Assembly: GCA_022787165.1 (NCBI GenBank)
Contig: JALFVL010000015.1
Span: forward strand, 1 to 64,000
Direction of reading: 5' to 3'
DNA from: Clostridiales bacterium
GTDB taxonomy: Bacteria > Bacillota > Clostridia > Christensenellales > Aristaeellaceae
DNA length: 64,000 nt
The notes under the pieces are model-generated. The model was not told the origin of the DNA. It did no database searches and saw nothing but the letters and a program-made list of their open reading frames with translations. Both the position numbers and the translations under genes were made by a program. Shown here one piece after another: positions 56,695-63,735 of this stretch; positions within the stretch are counted from its first letter, which is position 1, and each line of letters opens with the position of its first letter.

Positions 56695-57789
56695 TCACTT
56701 CTGCTCGGGGGCCTTAGCCGCAGCAGGCTTGGCAGCAGGCGCAGCGGGCTTGGCGGCGGCCGGAGCCTTCTTCACCTTGTCCATCTTGTTGCGGGGTGCG
56801 CGGCGCTCGCGCATGGTGATGGCCTTCTTCGGGCACTTCGCCGCGCACAGGCCGCAGCCCGTGCAGGCGCCCAGCACCTTGTGCGGCTGCTTGAGCGCGC
56901 CGTCAATGGCATCAAACTTGCACTGGCGAGCGCACAGCGTGCAGCCCACGCACTTGGAAGCATCGATATAGGCCTCCTTGCGCGTCTGCAAATCGGCCGC
57001 CATCGCACCGGTCGGGCAGGCATCGGCACAGGCCATGCAGCCCACACACTTGTCGTAATCGACCTTCGGTACGCCGTTTTCCATCGTCAGCGCCTCAAAG
57101 TTGCAGGCCTTGACACAGGCCTCGCAACCAATGCAGGCACGGTCGCACTTCTCCTTGAGCGCGATGCCCTTGCCCGGATTGTGGCAGCTCACGGTCACGA
57201 CGCGGTCATCCGGCTGCATGCTCAGCACATGCTGCGGGCAGGCCGCGACGCACTTCTTGCATCCCTGGCACTTCTCCTTATCGACGACCGCGATCTTCTT
57301 GATCGGATCGATATGGATCGCGCCAAACGGGCAGGCACGCTCGCAGGTTCCCAGACCCAGGCAGGCAAAAGCGCAGGCCTTCGTGCCGTTGTTCACCAGG
57401 GAAGCGGCCACGCAGTCCGTCATGCCCTGATACTCCGCTTTGGGCGCGCAATGGTCGCCATAACCCTGGCATGCGACGGTCGCGATCATCCGCTTGGAGC
57501 TGCTCACGGACACGCCCATGATCTCCGCCATCTTCGCGGAACACTTCGGGCCACCTACGGCGCAGGCGCCGACCTCGGCCTTGCCCTCCGCCACGGCAGC
57601 AGCATAGCCGTCGCAGCCCGGGAAGCCACAGGCGCCGCAGTTTGCGCCAGGCAGGCATTCGCGCAGCGCTTCGACCTTCGGGTTGGAGGGAACCTTAAAC
57701 ACGCGGCCGGTAACGCCCAGCAGCGCGCCAAAGGCCAGACCCAGAACACTCATGACAAGCGCGGCGATCAGAATTGCAGTTATACTCAC
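56695..57789 (-). CDS. rnfB: Rnf complex subunit RnfB (poly-ferredoxin)
   Basis: A 364-residue electron-entry subunit that accepts electrons from ferredoxin. An N-terminal transmembrane helix is followed by the Fe-S domain CGACGFPGCDGYA. Six further four-cysteine groups follow: GLGTCERACP with preceding Cys, CQGCKKCVAACP, CIGCEACVKACN, CVGCMACADACP, CVGCTLCARQCK and CTGCGLCAAKCP. That suggests up to seven clusters. The C-terminal tail is Ala/Pro/Lys-rich (about 330-364) with no known role. Translation starts at GTG 57789 with GGGAGG. It is last in rnfC-D-G-E-A-B, the order known from acetogenic clostridia. Confidence 0.96.
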   Translation of the reverse strand: MSITAILIAALVMSVLGLAFGALLGVTGRVFKVPSNPKVEALRECLPGANCGACGFPGCDGYAAAVAEGKAEVGACAVGGPKCSAKMAEIMGVSVSSSKRMIATVACQGYGDHCAPKAEYQGMTDCVAASLVNNGTKACAFACLGLGTCERACPFGAIHIDPIKKIAVVDKEKCQGCKKCVAACPQHVLSMQPDDRVVTVSCHNPGKGIALKEKCDRACIGCEACVKACNFEALTMENGVPKVDYDKCVGCMACADACPTGAMAADLQTRKEAYIDASKCVGCTLCARQCKFDAIDGALKQPHKVLGACTGCGLCAAKCPKKAITMRERRAPRNKMDKVKKAPAAAKPAAPAAKPAAAKAPEQK

Positions 57790-57814: not shown

Positions 57815-58390
57815 TCAGATCAGTCCGCTGAAGCCATTGAACGCGACGGCCATGATGCCCGCCGTGATCAGCGCGCCGGTGAAGCCCTCCATCCACTTGG
57901 GCATGTTGCCGTTGGCCAGACGTTCGCGAATGCCGGCAAACAGGCAAATCGAGAGCGTGAAGCCCAGCGCGGAGGCCGCGCCGTTGACGACGGAGAGGAT
58001 CAGGTTGTAGCCCTCGGTGACGTTGAGCTGGGTGACGCCGAGCACGGCGCAGTTGGTCGTGATCAGCGGCAGATAGACGCCCAGCGCCTGATACAGGCCC
58101 GGGGACATCTTCTTGAGCGCCATCTCCACGATCTGCACCAGCACGGCGATGACCAGGATGAACGCGATGGTCTGCAGATACTCAAGACCGAGCGGGACAA
58201 GCAGGAAAGCATTGACCAGATAAGCCACCAGCGAAGCAATCGCCATGACGAAGGTCACGGCCATGCCCATGCCGAAAGCGGTCTCCAGCTTCTTGGAAAC
58301 GCCCAGGAACGGGCAGATGCCGTAGAAACGGGACATGGCGAAGTTGTTGACGAAGATCGAGCCAATCAGGATCGTAAGAATTGCATTCAT
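57815..58390 (-). CDS. rnfA: Rnf complex subunit RnfA
   Basis: A 191-residue membrane subunit with six helices. NNFAMSRFYGICPFLGVSKK near the start and TNCAVLGV in the middle carry the conserved cysteines that, with RnfE, hold an iron-sulfur centre inside the membrane. It forms part of the ion-translocating core. GTAAGGAGG precedes the ATG; 12 bases separate it from rnfE. Confidence 0.97.
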   Translation of the reverse strand: MNAILTILIGSIFVNNFAMSRFYGICPFLGVSKKLETAFGMGMAVTFVMAIASLVAYLVNAFLLVPLGLEYLQTIAFILVIAVLVQIVEMALKKMSPGLYQALGVYLPLITTNCAVLGVTQLNVTEGYNLILSVVNGAASALGFTLSICLFAGIRERLANGNMPKWMEGFTGALITAGIMAVAFNGFSGLI

Positions 58391-58402: not shown

Positions 58403-58999
58403 TTACGCCTTCTTCGGCAGCAGCTTGTTCATCAGCGCCAGCATCAGGCCCAGGACGATGAAGCCGCCCGCAGGCTTGACCAGAATGCCCATCGGCAGGT
58501 AATTTGCCGGCATCACCTGAACGCCAAGCAGCGTGCCCGCGCCAAACAGCTCGCGCACCGCGGAGATCAGCGTGATGGCGATCGTGAAGCCCAGACCCAT
58601 GCCCAGACCATCCACCATAGCGGGAACCGGCTTGTTCTTGAAGGCAAACGCTTCCGCACGTCCAAAGATGATGCAGTTGACGACGATCAGCGGAATGAAC
58701 ACGCCCAGGGACGCATCCAACGCGGGCAGGAATGCCTTGATCACCAGCTGCACGATGGTAACAAACGTCGCGATGACGACGATGAAAGCGGGAATACGGA
58801 TCTGATCCGGAATGGCCTTGCGCAGCAGAGAAATGACCAGGTTGGAGAAGATCAGAACAAATGTGACAGCCAGACCCATGCCGATGCCGTTGCTCACGGC
58901 AGTCGTGATGGCCAGCGTCGGACACATGCCCAGCACCATGCGGAACGTCGGGTTCTCGTCGATGATGCCGTTCATGAAGATTTTGCGAAGCTCCTTCAT
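58403..58999 (-). CDS. rnfE: Rnf complex subunit RnfE
   Basis: A 198-residue membrane subunit homologous to RnfA with inverted topology. NPTFRMVLGMCPTLAITT and VNCIIFGRAEAFA contain the conserved cysteines paired with those of RnfA. AAGGAGG precedes the ATG, 13 bases after rnfG. Confidence 0.97.
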   Translation of the reverse strand: MKELRKIFMNGIIDENPTFRMVLGMCPTLAITTAVSNGIGMGLAVTFVLIFSNLVISLLRKAIPDQIRIPAFIVVIATFVTIVQLVIKAFLPALDASLGVFIPLIVVNCIIFGRAEAFAFKNKPVPAMVDGLGMGLGFTIAITLISAVRELFGAGTLLGVQVMPANYLPMGILVKPAGGFIVLGLMLALMNKLLPKKA

Positions 59000-59012: not shown

Positions 59013-61421
59013 TTAGTCCACATGCGCGGCGATGATCGCCAGCGCGTTGTTGATCGCGTTGCTCGTCACGGTCACGCCGGACTTGATGTCAACCTTTGCG
59101 TCCGAAATGCTCTGACCGATGAGCACGGAGAGCGCCTCGTCAGTCAGCATGGTTGCGCCCTTGCCTTCGGTCTCGCTGTGCTCCGGGCAGGTCGCGCCCA
59201 CAATCACGCCCGTCTCGTCAACCGAAATATCAAGCGTGAAGGGATGCTTGCTGTTGATGCCCATGACCTGAACCTCGTAGACCGTCGCATTTCCCTGCGC
59301 GGCAGGCGCACCAGTCACCTCGCCGGCAGGCGCGGCAGCCGCAGCCGCCTGACGCAGCGCATCGTTGATCGCGTTGCTCGTCAGCGTCACGCCGCTCTTC
59401 ACGTCAATCTGCGCCGTTGCGATGTCCTGGCCCACCAGCGCGTCAAACACGGCGGTGTCGGCAATCAGATCCGCGCCGAAGCCCGGCGTCTCGCTGTTCT
59501 CCGGCACGCTCACGGACACGATCTTCCCCGCCTCGTCCACGGCGATTTCCACCTTGAACGGCTGGAAGCCCGTCACCTCATACGCCTTGGCCTCAGCAGC
59601 CGCCGCGTCCGCAGCAGGCTCGGCCTCCTCCGCCGGAGCGGCAGCTGCGGCAGCCTGGCGCAGCGCATCGTTGATCGCGTTGCTCGTCAGCGTCACGCCG
59701 CTCTTCACGTCAATCTGCGCCGTCGCGATGTCCTGGCCCACCAGCGCGTCAAACACGGCGGTGTCGGCGATCAGATCCGCGCCGAAGCCCGGCGTCTCGC
59801 TGTTCTCCGGCACGCTCACGGACACGATCTTCCCCGCCTCGTCCACGGCGATTTCCACCTTGAATGGCTGGAAGCCCGTCACCTCATACGCCGTCGCATC
59901 AGAAGCGGAAGCATTTTCAGCGGGCGCTTCGACAGGAGCGGTTTCTTCCTCAGTCTCTTCGGCAATCTCAATGCCGTTCGCGGCAGCGGCCTGATGGAGC
60001 GCGTCATTGATCGCGTCGCTCGTCAGCGTCACGCCGCTCTTCACGTCAACCTGCGCCGTCGCCAGATCCTGCCCCGCAAGCGCAGCAAGCGCATCCTCGG
60101 TCAGCAGATCGGCGCCAAGACCTGGCGTTTCATTGTGATTCGGAGCGCTGACGGAAACAATCTTGCCGTCCTCTACTTCGATATACAGGGTGAACTTGTT
60201 CATACCCTTGACGGTGTAGGGATCGCCCGGGATGACAGGCGCAGCATCGTTCGCGCCGCCAAACTCGGCAGCGGCCTGACGGAGCGCGTCATTGATCGCG
60301 TTGCTCGTCAGCGTCACGCCGCTCTTCACATCGATCTGCGCCGTCGCGATGTCCTGGCCCACCAGGGCGTCGAACACGGCGGTGTCGGCGATCAGATCCG
60401 CGCCAAAGCCCGGCGTCTCGCCATTCTCCGGCACGCTCACAGAGACGATCTTGCCCGCGTCGTCCAGCTCAATGGCCACCTTGAAGGGCGCAAAGCCGGT
60501 CACGTCGTAGGTCTTCGCAGCGCTTTCCGCCGGCGTGCCCGCCTGGCGCAGCGCGTCGTTGATCGCGTTGCTGGTCAGCGTCGCGCCGGCCTTCACATCG
60601 ATCTGCGCCGTCGCGATGTCCTGGCCCACCAGCGCGTCGAACACGGCGGTGTCGGCGATCAGGTCTGCGCCAAAGCCCGGTGTCTCGCTGTGCTCCGGCA
60701 CGCTCACAGAGACGATCTTGCCATTTTCGTCGACCGCGATTTCCACCTTGAACGGCGCAAATCCGGTGACATCATAGGTTCCCGTCGTGACGATAGGCTC
60801 AGCCTCGGCGGTTTCGCCGCCGTTTGCCGCTGCCGCAGCGGCAAGAATCGCATCCTTGTCGCCCGCATGCGGCTCGATGCCCAGCGTATCGCGGGTATAG
60901 GTCAGCATGTCGGATACGGCATTGATGAACGCGCTCGAGGAGATCGTCGCGCCGCCGATGGTATCGACATCATCGCGCAGCGTATCGGGATCCGCAGCGA
61001 TACCGATGAACTGATCCATGAATTCAGCCTCGCCGACCCTGCTGCCCAGACCAGCGGTCTCCTGCAGCGCGCCGACATAGGTCTGCGTCACATAGCCCTC
61101 CGTGCTCACGCCCAGCGTGATCGGGATGGGGCCGCCATAGCCCTGCGGGTTCGCGACCAGCGCATAGCCCTGAACGTCGCCCGCGTCGTTCTTGCCGGCA
61201 AAGAGCTGCTCAACCGCGCTGCCCTCGGCAAGTCCCTCGATGGCTTCGATTTCTTCGTAGTTCGCGCAGCCCGGGAGCACCTTGTTGAGCGCTTCCTTCT
61301 GGGCGGCGATCTTCTGCTCTGCGATCGGGCCCTTTGTCACCTCATAGGTCAGGGCGAGCAGCACGGCCGCGACGAGCGAGAAGACGAACAGACGAACTGC
61401 GAGCTTGATGATATCACGCAT
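59013..61421 (-). CDS. rnfG: RnfG with six extra tandem FMN-binding-like modules
   Basis: An 802-residue RnfG; ordinary RnfG is about 200. A transmembrane helix (about 8-26) is followed by the canonical extracytoplasmic FMN-binding domain (about 80-175) with the flavinylation site DTIGGATISS (Thr159). Then come six modules of about 80 residues (215-294, 304-382, 401-480, 511-590, 613-692, 714-800), each with a Y-V-TGF start, GKIVSVSVPE, ETPGFGA and a D-x-x-[SA]-G-[VA]-T-x-T-S motif (Thr281, 370, 465, 577, 679, 784). Ala/Glu/Pro linkers separate them. Such modules in other secreted proteins carry FMN attached by ApbE. The ATG at 61421 has GGGGAGG and overlaps rnfD by 8 bases. The frame is open throughout. 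Confidence 0.95.
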   Translation of the reverse strand: MRDIIKLAVRLFVFSLVAAVLLALTYEVTKGPIAEQKIAAQKEALNKVLPGCANYEEIEAIEGLAEGSAVEQLFAGKNDAGDVQGYALVANPQGYGGPIPITLGVSTEGYVTQTYVGALQETAGLGSRVGEAEFMDQFIGIAADPDTLRDDVDTIGGATISSSAFINAVSDMLTYTRDTLGIEPHAGDKDAILAAAAAANGGETAEAEPIVTTGTYDVTGFAPFKVEIAVDENGKIVSVSVPEHSETPGFGADLIADTAVFDALVGQDIATAQIDVKAGATLTSNAINDALRQAGTPAESAAKTYDVTGFAPFKVAIELDDAGKIVSVSVPENGETPGFGADLIADTAVFDALVGQDIATAQIDVKSGVTLTSNAINDALRQAAAEFGGANDAAPVIPGDPYTVKGMNKFTLYIEVEDGKIVSVSAPNHNETPGLGADLLTEDALAALAGQDLATAQVDVKSGVTLTSDAINDALHQAAAANGIEIAEETEEETAPVEAPAENASASDATAYEVTGFQPFKVEIAVDEAGKIVSVSVPENSETPGFGADLIADTAVFDALVGQDIATAQIDVKSGVTLTSNAINDALRQAAAAAAPAEEAEPAADAAAAEAKAYEVTGFQPFKVEIAVDEAGKIVSVSVPENSETPGFGADLIADTAVFDALVGQDIATAQIDVKSGVTLTSNAINDALRQAAAAAAPAGEVTGAPAAQGNATVYEVQVMGINSKHPFTLDISVDETGVIVGATCPEHSETEGKGATMLTDEALSVLIGQSISDAKVDIKSGVTVTSNAINNALAIIAAHVD
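59022..60779 (-). repeat. array of six FMN-binding-like modules in rnfG
   Basis: Six direct coding repeats of about 240 bases: module 1 60540-60779, 2 60276-60512, 3 59982-60221, 4 59652-59891, 5 59346-59585, 6 59022-59282. Modules 1, 2, 4 and 5 are closely alike, 3 and 6 more diverged. Linkers vary from 9 to 30 residues and are rich in Ala, Glu and Pro. Confidence 0.93.
59346..59891 (-). repeat. near-identical tandem pair (modules 4 and 5)
   Basis: The two 240-base units at 59346-59585 and 59652-59891, offset by 306 bases, differ by about four bases, all of them silent; the encoded modules are identical. The Ala-rich linkers between them are not identical. Confidence 0.9.
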
Positions 61422-62355
61422 TCTTCTTGACCTCCCCAAAGCTCTTAATGCCGGTCACGCGCTCAATCAGCGGAGACACGACGTTCATCAGAAGGATGGC
61501 GAAAGAGCACCACTCCGCCGGCGTGCTCTTGCAGAAGCGGAAGATGAACAGCAGCAGGCCGCAGCCTACGCCAAAGACGAGCTTGCCCTTGTCCGTCGCA
61601 GGAGAAGAGGAGTAATCGGTCGCCATGAAGAACGCACCCAAAATCAGGCCGCCAGAGAGCACCTGATAGAGCGTCGCGCCCAGGTCAAAGCCGGTACCGA
61701 TCAGGTAGCACACCGCAAACGTGCCGATGAAGGCAGCCGGGATGTGCCAGCTGATGACGCGGCGCCAGAGCAGATAAGCCGCGCCGATGAGCAGCGCCAG
61801 CTTGCAGGTTTCGCCGAGGGTGCCCGGAATGTTGCCCAGGAAGAGCTGCGCCAGCGTATAATTCTGCGCGGCAATCGGGGTTGCGGAGGCCACGGCATCG
61901 ACGCCTGCCAGGTTGCCGAAAGCCGGCGTGGCAAACGTGTTCATCAGGCTCGCCCAAGAGAGCGAGAGAATCGCGCGCGCGGCCAGGGCCGGGTTGGCGA
62001 AATTCTGGCCGATGCCGCCGAAAATCATCTTTACCAGCAGAATGGCGATGATGGAGCCAACGACCGGCATCCAGTAAGGAACGGTCGAGGGCAGGTTCAT
62101 GGCCAGCAGCATGCCGGTGACGACGGCGCTGAAGTCGCCGATGGTGCTCCTCTGATGCGCAGCCTTGCAATAGAAATGCTCGCTCAGAACCGCAGCTGCG
62201 ATGGACAATGCCAGAATCACCAGGGACCGGTAGCCGAAGAACAGCACGCCCGCGGCGGCCGCCGGCAGCAGCGCGATGCAGACATCCTGCATGATGCGCG
62301 CGGTCGTGACATTATCGCGCAGATGCGGAGAAGACGAAATCACATACTTAGACAT
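61414..62355 (-). CDS. rnfD: Rnf complex subunit RnfD
   Basis: A 313-residue membrane subunit with about ten helices and a covalently attached FMN. The attachment region reads DAVASATPIAA (the family's SGATP site, here with S-A-T), and FMATDYSSSPATDKGK is the other conserved block. It takes electrons towards or from RnfG across the membrane. The ATG at 62355 is used because GGAGG lies nine bases upstream; a GTG two codons before is too near. Confidence 0.95.
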   Translation of the reverse strand: MSKYVISSSPHLRDNVTTARIMQDVCIALLPAAAAGVLFFGYRSLVILALSIAAAVLSEHFYCKAAHQRSTIGDFSAVVTGMLLAMNLPSTVPYWMPVVGSIIAILLVKMIFGGIGQNFANPALAARAILSLSWASLMNTFATPAFGNLAGVDAVASATPIAAQNYTLAQLFLGNIPGTLGETCKLALLIGAAYLLWRRVISWHIPAAFIGTFAVCYLIGTGFDLGATLYQVLSGGLILGAFFMATDYSSSPATDKGKLVFGVGCGLLLFIFRFCKSTPAEWCSFAILLMNVVSPLIERVTGIKSFGEVKKNA

Positions 62356-62377
62356 TTTCACGTTCCTCCGTACTCAG

Positions 62378-63697
62378 TTAGGACTTTTTGCTCTTGGCAA
62401 TCGCCTTGGCGACGCGGCAGCTCTGCGTCAGCTCACGCTTGGCCGGACAGCTGTAGGTACAGGAGCCGCATTCCATGCAGTTGAGCGCGCCGGCTGCAAT
62501 CGCGCCGTCGTAGTTGCCCTTGCGCACAAGCAAATCGATCTTGGAGGGCATCAGGCCCATCGGGCAGGCGCGCAGGCAGCGTCCGCAGCGGATGCAGGCG
62601 GATTCCTGGCTGCTGATCGCCTCCTCGCCCAAGGCAAGGAAGCCGCCGCAGTTCTTGGTGACCGGGAAGTTGAGCGTCGGCACGGTGTTGCCCATCATGG
62701 GGCCGCCGACGATCAGCTTGCGCACGCCGTCTGTCAGGCCGCCGGCCTGATCGATTACATCGAGCATGGACGTGCCGATGCGCACGCGCAGGTTGCACGG
62801 CTCGGCCACGCGGCCCGACACGGTCACGACGCGATCGATGATCGGCCTGCCCAGGCGCACGGCGTCGGAAAGCGCGGCGCAGGTGGCCACATTCAGCACG
62901 GCGCACTGCGCGGCAGACGGGAGCGCGCCGTTGGGCACCCTGCGCCCCGTCAGCGCGTAAATCAACATTTTTTCAAAGCCCTGCGGATACTTGGCGGGCA
63001 GCGCGACGATTTCCACGCCATCCTTCGCGGCAGCCTTCATGGCCTCCACGGCGTCGGGCTTGTTGTTTTCAATGCCCACCACCGCGCGGGAAGCGCCAAT
63101 CGCCTTCCGCGCCAGCAGAATGCCGTCGATGATCTTGTCGGCGCACTCCACCATCAGCCTGTGGTCGCTGGTCAGATACGGCTCGCACTCGCTGCCGTTG
63201 ACCACCAGCGTGTCCAGCGGCTTTTCGAGCTTGGAGGTGTTGAGCTTGACCGCCGTGGGGAACGCCGCGCCGCCCAGGCCAACCACGCCGCACTTTCCAG
63301 CGATGGACGCAATATCCGCCGGAGTGAGCGCATCGACATTTTCACACGGGCAGACGGACTCGTCCCACCTGTCCTCAAAGTCGTTTTCAATCACAACCGC
63401 CGCAGCCGTTTTGCCGCTGGGCAGCGTGCAGGTCGTCACCGCGACCACCTTGCCGGAAACGGACGCATGTACAGGCGCGGAAATGAATCCCTGCGCTTCG
63501 CCGATGACCTGCCCCATGTTGACCGTCTGGCCCGCCTTGACGCAGCACGCCGCCGGCGCGCCGCCATGCTGAGCCATCGCAATCGTCACCTGAGCCGGAG
63601 CAGCCGCGTTCACAATCTGCTTGGACCGGGTTGCGCTCTTTCCGTTCCCAATCTCGCGGGGATGAACGCCGCCGCCAAATGTCTGGGTAATAGCCAC
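62378..63697 (-). CDS. rnfC: Rnf complex subunit RnfC
   Basis: A 439-residue peripheral subunit that exchanges electrons with NAD. An N-terminal biotin/lipoyl-like domain (about 20-100) is followed by the flavoprotein-like core with GLGGAAFPTAVKL and GSECEPYLTSDHRLM, an SLBB domain, and a C-terminal di-cluster ferredoxin: CIRCGRCLRACP and CMECGSCTYSCP. The start is GTG 63697, which is nine bases after GGGAGG; an in-frame TTG six bases earlier is too close. It is the first gene of the operon. Confidence 0.95.
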   Translation of the reverse strand: MAITQTFGGGVHPREIGNGKSATRSKQIVNAAAPAQVTIAMAQHGGAPAACCVKAGQTVNMGQVIGEAQGFISAPVHASVSGKVVAVTTCTLPSGKTAAAVVIENDFEDRWDESVCPCENVDALTPADIASIAGKCGVVGLGGAAFPTAVKLNTSKLEKPLDTLVVNGSECEPYLTSDHRLMVECADKIIDGILLARKAIGASRAVVGIENNKPDAVEAMKAAAKDGVEIVALPAKYPQGFEKMLIYALTGRRVPNGALPSAAQCAVLNVATCAALSDAVRLGRPIIDRVVTVSGRVAEPCNLRVRIGTSMLDVIDQAGGLTDGVRKLIVGGPMMGNTVPTLNFPVTKNCGGFLALGEEAISSQESACIRCGRCLRACPMGLMPSKIDLLVRKGNYDGAIAAGALNCMECGSCTYSCPAKRELTQSCRVAKAIAKSKKS

Positions 63698-63735
63698 AGA
63701 CAAGTTCCTCCCTTCACTTTTCAAGCGCTTGTACC

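Follow-up and report, generated by a model that had tools for sequence, protein, structure and literature searches.

The RnfG subunit of the Rnf complex has been described as a moving electron switch (PMC12174285). RNF gene clusters with multi-flavinylated RnfG proteins are already known as a protein type: a bioinformatic study of 2021 described the class and considered it likely that these clusters offer an additional route to alternative extracytosolic acceptors (Meheust et al. 2021, eLife 10:e66878, PMC8238504). The same work reports up to 13 flavinylation sites per protein. Among the related flavin-bearing strings, SaFMN3 contains three flavins, as determined by mass, which display one potential (-184 mV) and are joined by flexible linkers, with no sign of directionality reported (Tong et al. 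2023, PMC10339131). In the crystal structure of CbFMN4 (PDB 8p2b), the threonine of the ET..xG motif bonds the N5 atom of the flavin (PMC10339131). The present analysis concerns a stretch of 64,000 nucleotides (the window) from contig JALFVL010000015.1 of a Clostridiales bacterium (GCA_022787165.1). Its rnfG gene encodes a canonical RnfG domain for flavin mononucleotide (FMN), designated m0, followed by six small FMN-binding modules (m1 to m6). The comparisons give an even chance that this protein serves as a flexible tether of flavins through which electrons branch off from Rnf to reductases outside the cytosol.

The rnfG gene lies on the minus strand, starts with an ATG at 61421 that overlaps the rnfD stop and is preceded on its 5' side by a purine-rich stretch (GGGGAGG), and encodes 802 amino acids up to a stop codon ending at 59013. 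It is the third gene of a complete operon with the order rnfC-D-G-E-A-B, and all six subunits exceed the cut-offs of the NCBIfam TIGR models in a profile search of the operon proteins. The rnfG model TIGR01947 matches residues 10-176 with 196.5 bits (cut-off 102). The protein has the N-terminal membrane helix and the FMN domain with attachment threonine (T159) of an RnfG, and the other five Rnf subunits are encoded alongside. The Pfam FMN_bind profile matches seven stretches of the chain (whole protein 279 bits, E 1.6e-84), which score between 34.2 and 57.8 bits each, all above the cut-off of 22. This is the composition recognized in an earlier sequence-only reading of the window, namely one RnfG frame of 802 residues with a canonical domain and six small modules; that reading named the span but no strand. 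The linkers between the modules comprise 7-37 residues, with Ala, Pro and Glu abundant by eye, and the chain after residue 30 has an isoelectric point of about 4.05. Chance repeats or a spurious frame are ruled out by the profile scores and by the low ratios of non-synonymous to synonymous substitution (dN/dS) between the modules.

The attachment motifs are DTIGGATIS (T159), DVKAGATLT (T281), DVKSGVTLT (T370, T465, T577 and T679) and DIKSGVTVT (T784). All six small modules fit the pattern D-x-x-[SA]-G-[VA]-T-x-T-S, as the sequence-only reading had stated. The attachment threonine and the ET..xG motif are retained at all seven sites, and each small module keeps both the ET..xG threonine, which bonds N5 in CbFMN4, and the threonine that bonds N3. 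Across 17 chains, 69 of the 72 small modules contain both ET..xG (or ES..xG) and the attachment Thr/Ser, with three exceptions. All seven sites are thus candidates for FMN attachment. By alignment to CbFMN4, the flavin ring would be sandwiched by Phe/Phe in m1, m2, m4 and m5, by Met/Leu in m3 and by Ile/Lys in m6. Consequently, two modules offer different flavin surroundings, which may affect the potential of their flavins.

The structure models describe folded units on a mobile string. AlphaFold2 applied to the whole chain (10 sequences) yields a mean predicted local distance difference test (pLDDT) of 71.7 and a predicted template modeling score (pTM) of 0.26, corresponding to folded beads without fixed mutual placement. 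In this model the first helix spans residues 2-48, the canonical FMN domain is poor at 118-161, so that T159 falls within the low-confidence part, and the last helix begins with the attachment threonine in all six small modules, as in the described crystal structures. The model of a single module (58 sequences) reaches a pLDDT of 95.7 and a pTM of 0.87. Foldseek matches the whole chain to RnfG 7zc6 (E 3.6e-6) and the single module to the crystallized, FMN-bearing domain 1 of CbFMN4 (8p2b_B, E 4.2e-4, TM-score up to 0.79 by target length), which assigns the small modules to the FMN_bind fold. With 4.4 nm per module (PMC10339131) and stretched linkers, the fully extended tail would reach about 68 nm as an upper bound.

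The genome is GC-rich and a 42-contig draft, 90% complete. It contains a single match to the flavin transferase ApbE, on contig C37, whereas the window is contig C27; the earlier remark that no apbE gene is in the window holds, and the gene is found elsewhere in the genome. There are 10 other FMN_bind proteins, none of them FMN_bind alone: nine combine FMN_bind with FAD_binding_2 and one carries C_GCAxxG_C_C. The nine, which are presumably of the fumarate- or urocanate-reductase kind, have a signal-like N-terminus by eye and are probably secreted. Among the NCBIfam models, the eight that were scanned score best against one for flavocytochrome c, and TIGR01813 is above its cut-off in two. In L025, two reductase genes are adjacent, with a flavin-reductase-like frame next to them, and L024 has two others at a distance of about 3 kb. 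When neighbors in codon-scored gene calls were judged by eye from their first residues, none beside the other FMN_bind genes was recognized as a membrane electron-transfer partner. Two side observations concern these proteins. The reductase at L026:3482-5989 has two FMN_bind domains N-terminal to FAD_binding_2, a small multi-flavin reductase, and the frame at L021:1342-2277 joins C_GCAxxG_C_C to FMN_bind behind a twin-arginine-like start, SRREFLKK (by eye).

Other donors to these reductases were considered. The genome has no match for Fer4_5/NapH, PepSY_TM or DUF4405, and Ferric_reduct/MsrQ is matched neither in this genome nor in any of 60 family genomes. NapH, MsrQ, PepSY_TM and DUF4405 donors were rejected on these grounds, although, at 90% completeness and with a search that did not extend to EetA/B, Ndh2 and further conduits, such absences are no proof. 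A homologue of RnfD/NqrB occurs once, the rnfD of the operon. The only UbiA-family match resembles decaprenyl-phosphate phosphoribosyltransferase (just below the cut-off of that model) and not MenA, so no menaquinone prenyltransferase is seen.

In the proposed mechanism, the RnfG of a complete Rnf complex would be extended at its extracytosolic C-terminus by six ApbE-type FMN modules on flexible linkers. Reduced ferredoxin would enter via RnfB and RnfA/E and reduce the FMN bound in the canonical RnfG domain. Electrons would normally proceed from this FMN to RnfD, RnfC and NAD+. Alternatively, the electron would hop outward through collisions between the tethered flavin beads, which would pass it to the secreted, flavinylated FMN_bind and FAD_binding_2 reductases and, through them, to small organic acceptors. 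The tail would then act as a flexible tether at whose multiple sites the various extracytosolic reductases could dock. The outward direction of the flow and the identity of the partners are inferred. The sequence-only reading had envisaged a flavin wire toward an extracellular acceptor. The outward route gains from the intact sites, the module fold, the ApbE, the nine reductases and the lack of matches to four conduit families, whereas a rigid wire is unsupported, given the pTM of 0.26 and the beads without fixed placement.

The beads could instead feed mineral or soluble extracellular acceptors generally, as in extracellular electron transfer, and not reductases. PplA of Listeria, an FMN_bind protein, serves such a system, and the upper-bound reach of the tail would be compatible with it. 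On the other hand, no cell-wall anchor is apparent by eye at the C-terminus of RnfG, and the nine reductases, together with relatives labeled as from rumen compartments and from rabbit, make small organic acceptors likelier; general extracellular transfer is therefore considered unlikely.

The comparison of the modules points to recent copying within the chain. Modules m1, m2, m4 and m5 are 87-99% identical, and m4 and m5 share 97% of their DNA and 99% of their amino acids, differing by seven synonymous changes and one non-synonymous change. In 20 within-protein pairs of recent copies, dN/dS ranges from 0.04 to 0.23 and the changes are mainly synonymous, which speaks against decay in the copies examined. 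For 33 of the 72 modules the nearest relative lies within the same protein, against 5.8% expected at random, an expectation that ignores phylogeny. In the relative G035, identity to the nearest sister module is 94-99% for six modules. The counterparts of m3 group across all eleven close relatives in the module tree, L011 more loosely and by its m2; this tree and that of the RnfG core are FastTree runs whose support values were not inspected. Modules are thus duplicated in a lineage-specific manner, with copies turning over around m3, which is retained. The near-identity of m4 and m5 in a 42-contig draft also means that the exact module number could be off by one. It is nevertheless highly improbable that misassembly of the near-identical repeats accounts for part of the count of seven. 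The chains of eleven close relatives have 4-9 FMN_bind domains, five of these chains being flagged as truncated at a contig end, and the chain of G035, with 8 domains in a genome of only 3 contigs, indicates that such arrays are real; an error would amount to about one module and leave the phenomenon untouched.

Chains of this kind extend beyond the window genome. In a survey of the order, the rnfG model matches 130 of 248 sampled genomes at E 0.001, 32 of them above the model cut-off; in the family, it matches 55 of 60 genomes at E 1e-15, 25 above the cut-off. An RnfG-like chain with at least two modules (2-11) occurs in 37 of the 60 sampled family genomes. The eleven close relatives derive from goat rumen, roe deer reticulum and omasum, a source labeled 'Lapin' and others; they overlap the survey, since L017 and G212, being of equal length, are apparently the same contig. 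Multi-module chains are accordingly a family trait. Per-chain counts come from a custom hidden Markov model built on regex-picked seeds, and are minima in the 15 of 61 chains flagged as cut by a contig end. By context, 21 of these 61 chains (20 genomes) follow rnfC and rnfD, three follow rnfD only and nine precede rnfC. The remaining 28, mostly near a contig end, show no rnf gene in the fetched stretch; at least 3 kb of sequence is available on both sides in only 5 of the 26 genomes concerned, and for most of them a position outside an rnf operon cannot be claimed. Multi-heme RnfG was rejected as a candidate: no CxxCH heme motif occurs in the window chain or in 60 other chains scanned, some of them cut by a contig end.

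Within the family, module number rises with the number of other FMN_bind domains in the genome, calculated as the Pfam total per genome minus the custom-model count per chain. The correlation amounts to rho 0.62 (n=55) and leaves out the five of 60 genomes without an RnfG match at E 1e-15; in genomes with two chains the larger count is used. It persists with one genome per genus (rho 0.60, n=45) and in genomes at least 90% complete (rho 0.58, n=33). The median number of other domains is 4 in multi-module genomes (n=37) versus 0 in single-module genomes (n=18). Genome size does not track module number (r -0.01), and NapH counts are unrelated to it. In the nine chains that precede rnfC the relation is rho 0.62 (p 0.07).

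Several observations weigh against a tether that serves reductases. Phylogenetic contrasts on the RnfG-core tree lower the correlation to r 0.34 (p 0.065). Split by context, it falls to rho 0.37 (p 0.11, n=20) for chains after both rnfC and rnfD and to rho 0.32 (p 0.11, n=26) for those without an rnf gene in the fetched stretch. A claim of strong correlation is weakened by both results, and the link between module number and other FMN_bind domains is suggestive, not decisive. These domains are moreover a proxy, identified as reductases in the window genome only. The single-module genome G260 has seven of them, and four genomes with the complete rnfCDGEAB order and 2-4 modules (G272, G276, G257 and G279) have none. 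In the window genome itself, a CcdA-thioredoxin fusion protein encoded about 4 kb from one reductase offers an alternative membrane donor. Among older module pairs dN/dS spans 0.12-0.66, with the highest value for m6 versus m4 and 0.35 for m6 versus its likely counterpart, so that m6 is less clearly under constraint. The literature yielded no mass or redox measurement of the window RnfG.

The four genomes without other FMN_bind domains would suit a store or damper, in which Rnf, in the absence of an external acceptor, would place electrons on as many as six additional flavins and so even out changes in the ferredoxin/NADH ratio. Similar potentials would be expected for m1, m2, m4 and m5, which resemble one another, by analogy with SaFMN3, whose three flavins show one potential and gave its authors no indication of directionality (PMC10339131). 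Six or seven flavins per complex would, however, be a tiny pool by general knowledge, the pockets of m3 and m6 differ, and the nine reductases would be left unexplained. Such a store is considered improbable.

The composition of the attachment motif may also count against full flavin loading. Compared with the ApbE motif D-x-x-[ST]-G-A-[ST], the Asp and Thr are present at 7/7 sites and the fourth position is Gly at T159 and Ala at T281. The Ala before the threonine is found at T159 and T281 only, and Val takes its place in five of the six small modules (SGVT). The same V-T pair occurs at 38 of the 58 small modules of the window chain and the eleven close relatives. It is absent from the N-terminal domain of the 16 chains examined (13 by pattern, 3 by eye), although in G278, which is more distant, the motif nearest the start of the listing does have it. 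According to a review, exchange of Ala for Val cut flavinylation to about 50% in a fumarate reductase of Klebsiella (PMC12052999). Fewer than seven flavins are thus possible; occupancy may be partial, or the ApbE of this genome may have adapted to Val. These facts could suit a tail that is largely redox-silent, in which only T159 and perhaps T281 (AGAT) are flavinylated and the rest is a spacer or surface coat. A plain spacer would need neither the low dN/dS of the recent copies nor the ET..xG and attachment residues kept in nearly all modules, and in the tested protein flavinylation was halved, not abolished. A silent tail is accordingly rated as quite unlikely.

A wider reading joins these elements into a branched respiratory hub, in which the RnfG tether of a ferredoxin-driven ion pump would directly power secreted flavin reductases without quinones or cytochromes, repeat duplication would adjust module number to the set of reductases, and m3 and m6, the C-terminal module, would with their differing pockets be set points giving direction. 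As a whole it is put forward tentatively and is doubtful in its full extent. If the tether does operate in this manner, some gut Clostridia would respire organic acceptors from ferredoxin via flavins alone, with neither hemes nor quinones. The window genome would be a clean case for studying it, with one ApbE, one Rnf, nine putatively flavinylated reductases and few rival conduits found. No functional test of a multi-flavin RnfG is among the literature matches listed.

Some further observations complete the description of the locus (Table 1) and of its relatives. The flavin motif of RnfD in the window is apparently DAVASAT (T161) instead of SGAT. In L096, L102 and L116, RnfG-like chains are near NusG_II and ApbE genes with no rnf gene found in the fetched stretch, and L102 additionally holds a PF07456 membrane protein. 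In L063 the chain is likewise near NusG_II and ApbE genes, with an rnfC fragment on its 3' side. These four chains have 7-11 modules, and the NusG_II/ApbE neighborhood is possibly a second home for multi-FMN RnfG-like chains. In L064, L066, L067, L068 and L077 the RnfG frame is open to 526-572 amino acids with a single FMN_bind domain, either because the N-terminus carries a long extension or because the frame stays open upstream of the start.

Table 1. Features of the rnf operon and of the RnfG chain, in positions of the window.
Feature	Position	Strand	Basis
rnfG, seven FMN_bind domains	59013..61421	-	TIGR01947, Pfam FMN_bind
RnfG N-terminal membrane helix, about residues 5-27	61341..61409	-	by eye; model helix 2-48
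m0, canonical RnfG FMN domain, predicted FMN threonine T159	60894..61169	-	profile, motif
m1, small FMN_bind module, T281 (AGAT), F221/F250 pocket	60537..60782	-	profile, motif, model, CbFMN4 alignment
m2, small FMN_bind module, T370 (SGVT), F310/F339 pocket	60264..60515	-	profile, motif, model, CbFMN4 alignment
m3, small FMN_bind module, T465 (SGVT), M407/L435 pocket	59979..60218	-	profile, motif, module tree, CbFMN4 alignment
m4, small FMN_bind module, T577 (SGVT), F517/F546 pocket	59640..59894	-	profile, motif, model, CbFMN4 alignment
m5, small FMN_bind module, T679 (SGVT), F619/F648 pocket	59334..59588	-	profile, motif; 99% amino acid identity with m4
m6, C-terminal FMN_bind module, T784 (SGVT), I722/K754 pocket, most divergent	59019..59285	-	profile, motif
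rnfC	62378..63724	-	471.7 bits, cut-off 246
rnfD, DAVASAT motif, T161	61414..62361	-	TIGR model above cut-off
rnfE	58403..58999	-	242 bits, cut-off 213
rnfA	57815..58390	-	255.7 bits, cut-off 229
rnfB	56695..57789	-	168.6 bits, cut-off 69

Compared with the canonical RnfG proteins of known structure (PDB 7zc6_G and 9eri_G), the window chain shares the membrane helix and the FMN domain (residues 4-175). The solved chains comprise 189-237 amino acids, whereas the window chain has 802, and they carry one covalent FMN, as tabulated in PMC12174285. Domain 1 of CbFMN4 is the closest solved relative of the window modules by both profile and fold. CbFMN4 and SaFMN3 (PDB 8p2b and 8p2a) are likewise strings of small FMN_bind domains with Thr-linked FMN; they differ in having 4 and 3 sites and are not presented as RnfG in the relevant sections of their description (PMC10339131). 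The same predicted architecture is reported for the multi-FMN-bind1 beads-on-a-string proteins (mSystems 2024, PMC11334425), where the models, as presented, concern multi-flavinylated proteins generally and not an Rnf subunit. The multi-heme cytochrome MmcA of the Methanosarcina Rnf is, in the account of PMC12174285, also an addition to Rnf that conducts electrons to other or external acceptors, but it is a separate heme protein, whereas in the window the flavin modules are fused to RnfG.

The nearest counterparts are the RnfG proteins of Meheust et al. 2021, which belong to the same class, being encoded in RNF clusters and having two or more FMN-binding domains, and for which the same bypass was proposed (PMC8238504). 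Since that proposal is already in print, the outward route is less novel than the sequence-only reading implied. The multi-heme variants that those authors saw in Christensenellales were not seen among the 61 chains scanned here. Their section on these clusters gives no gene-by-gene account of the acceptors, whereas the window genome provides nine candidate reductases and few rival donors. The present analysis adds to that class a genome with a single ApbE encoded apart from the operon, nine reductases, one RnfD and no match for four conduit families, together with a lineage-specific duplication of the modules at low dN/dS.

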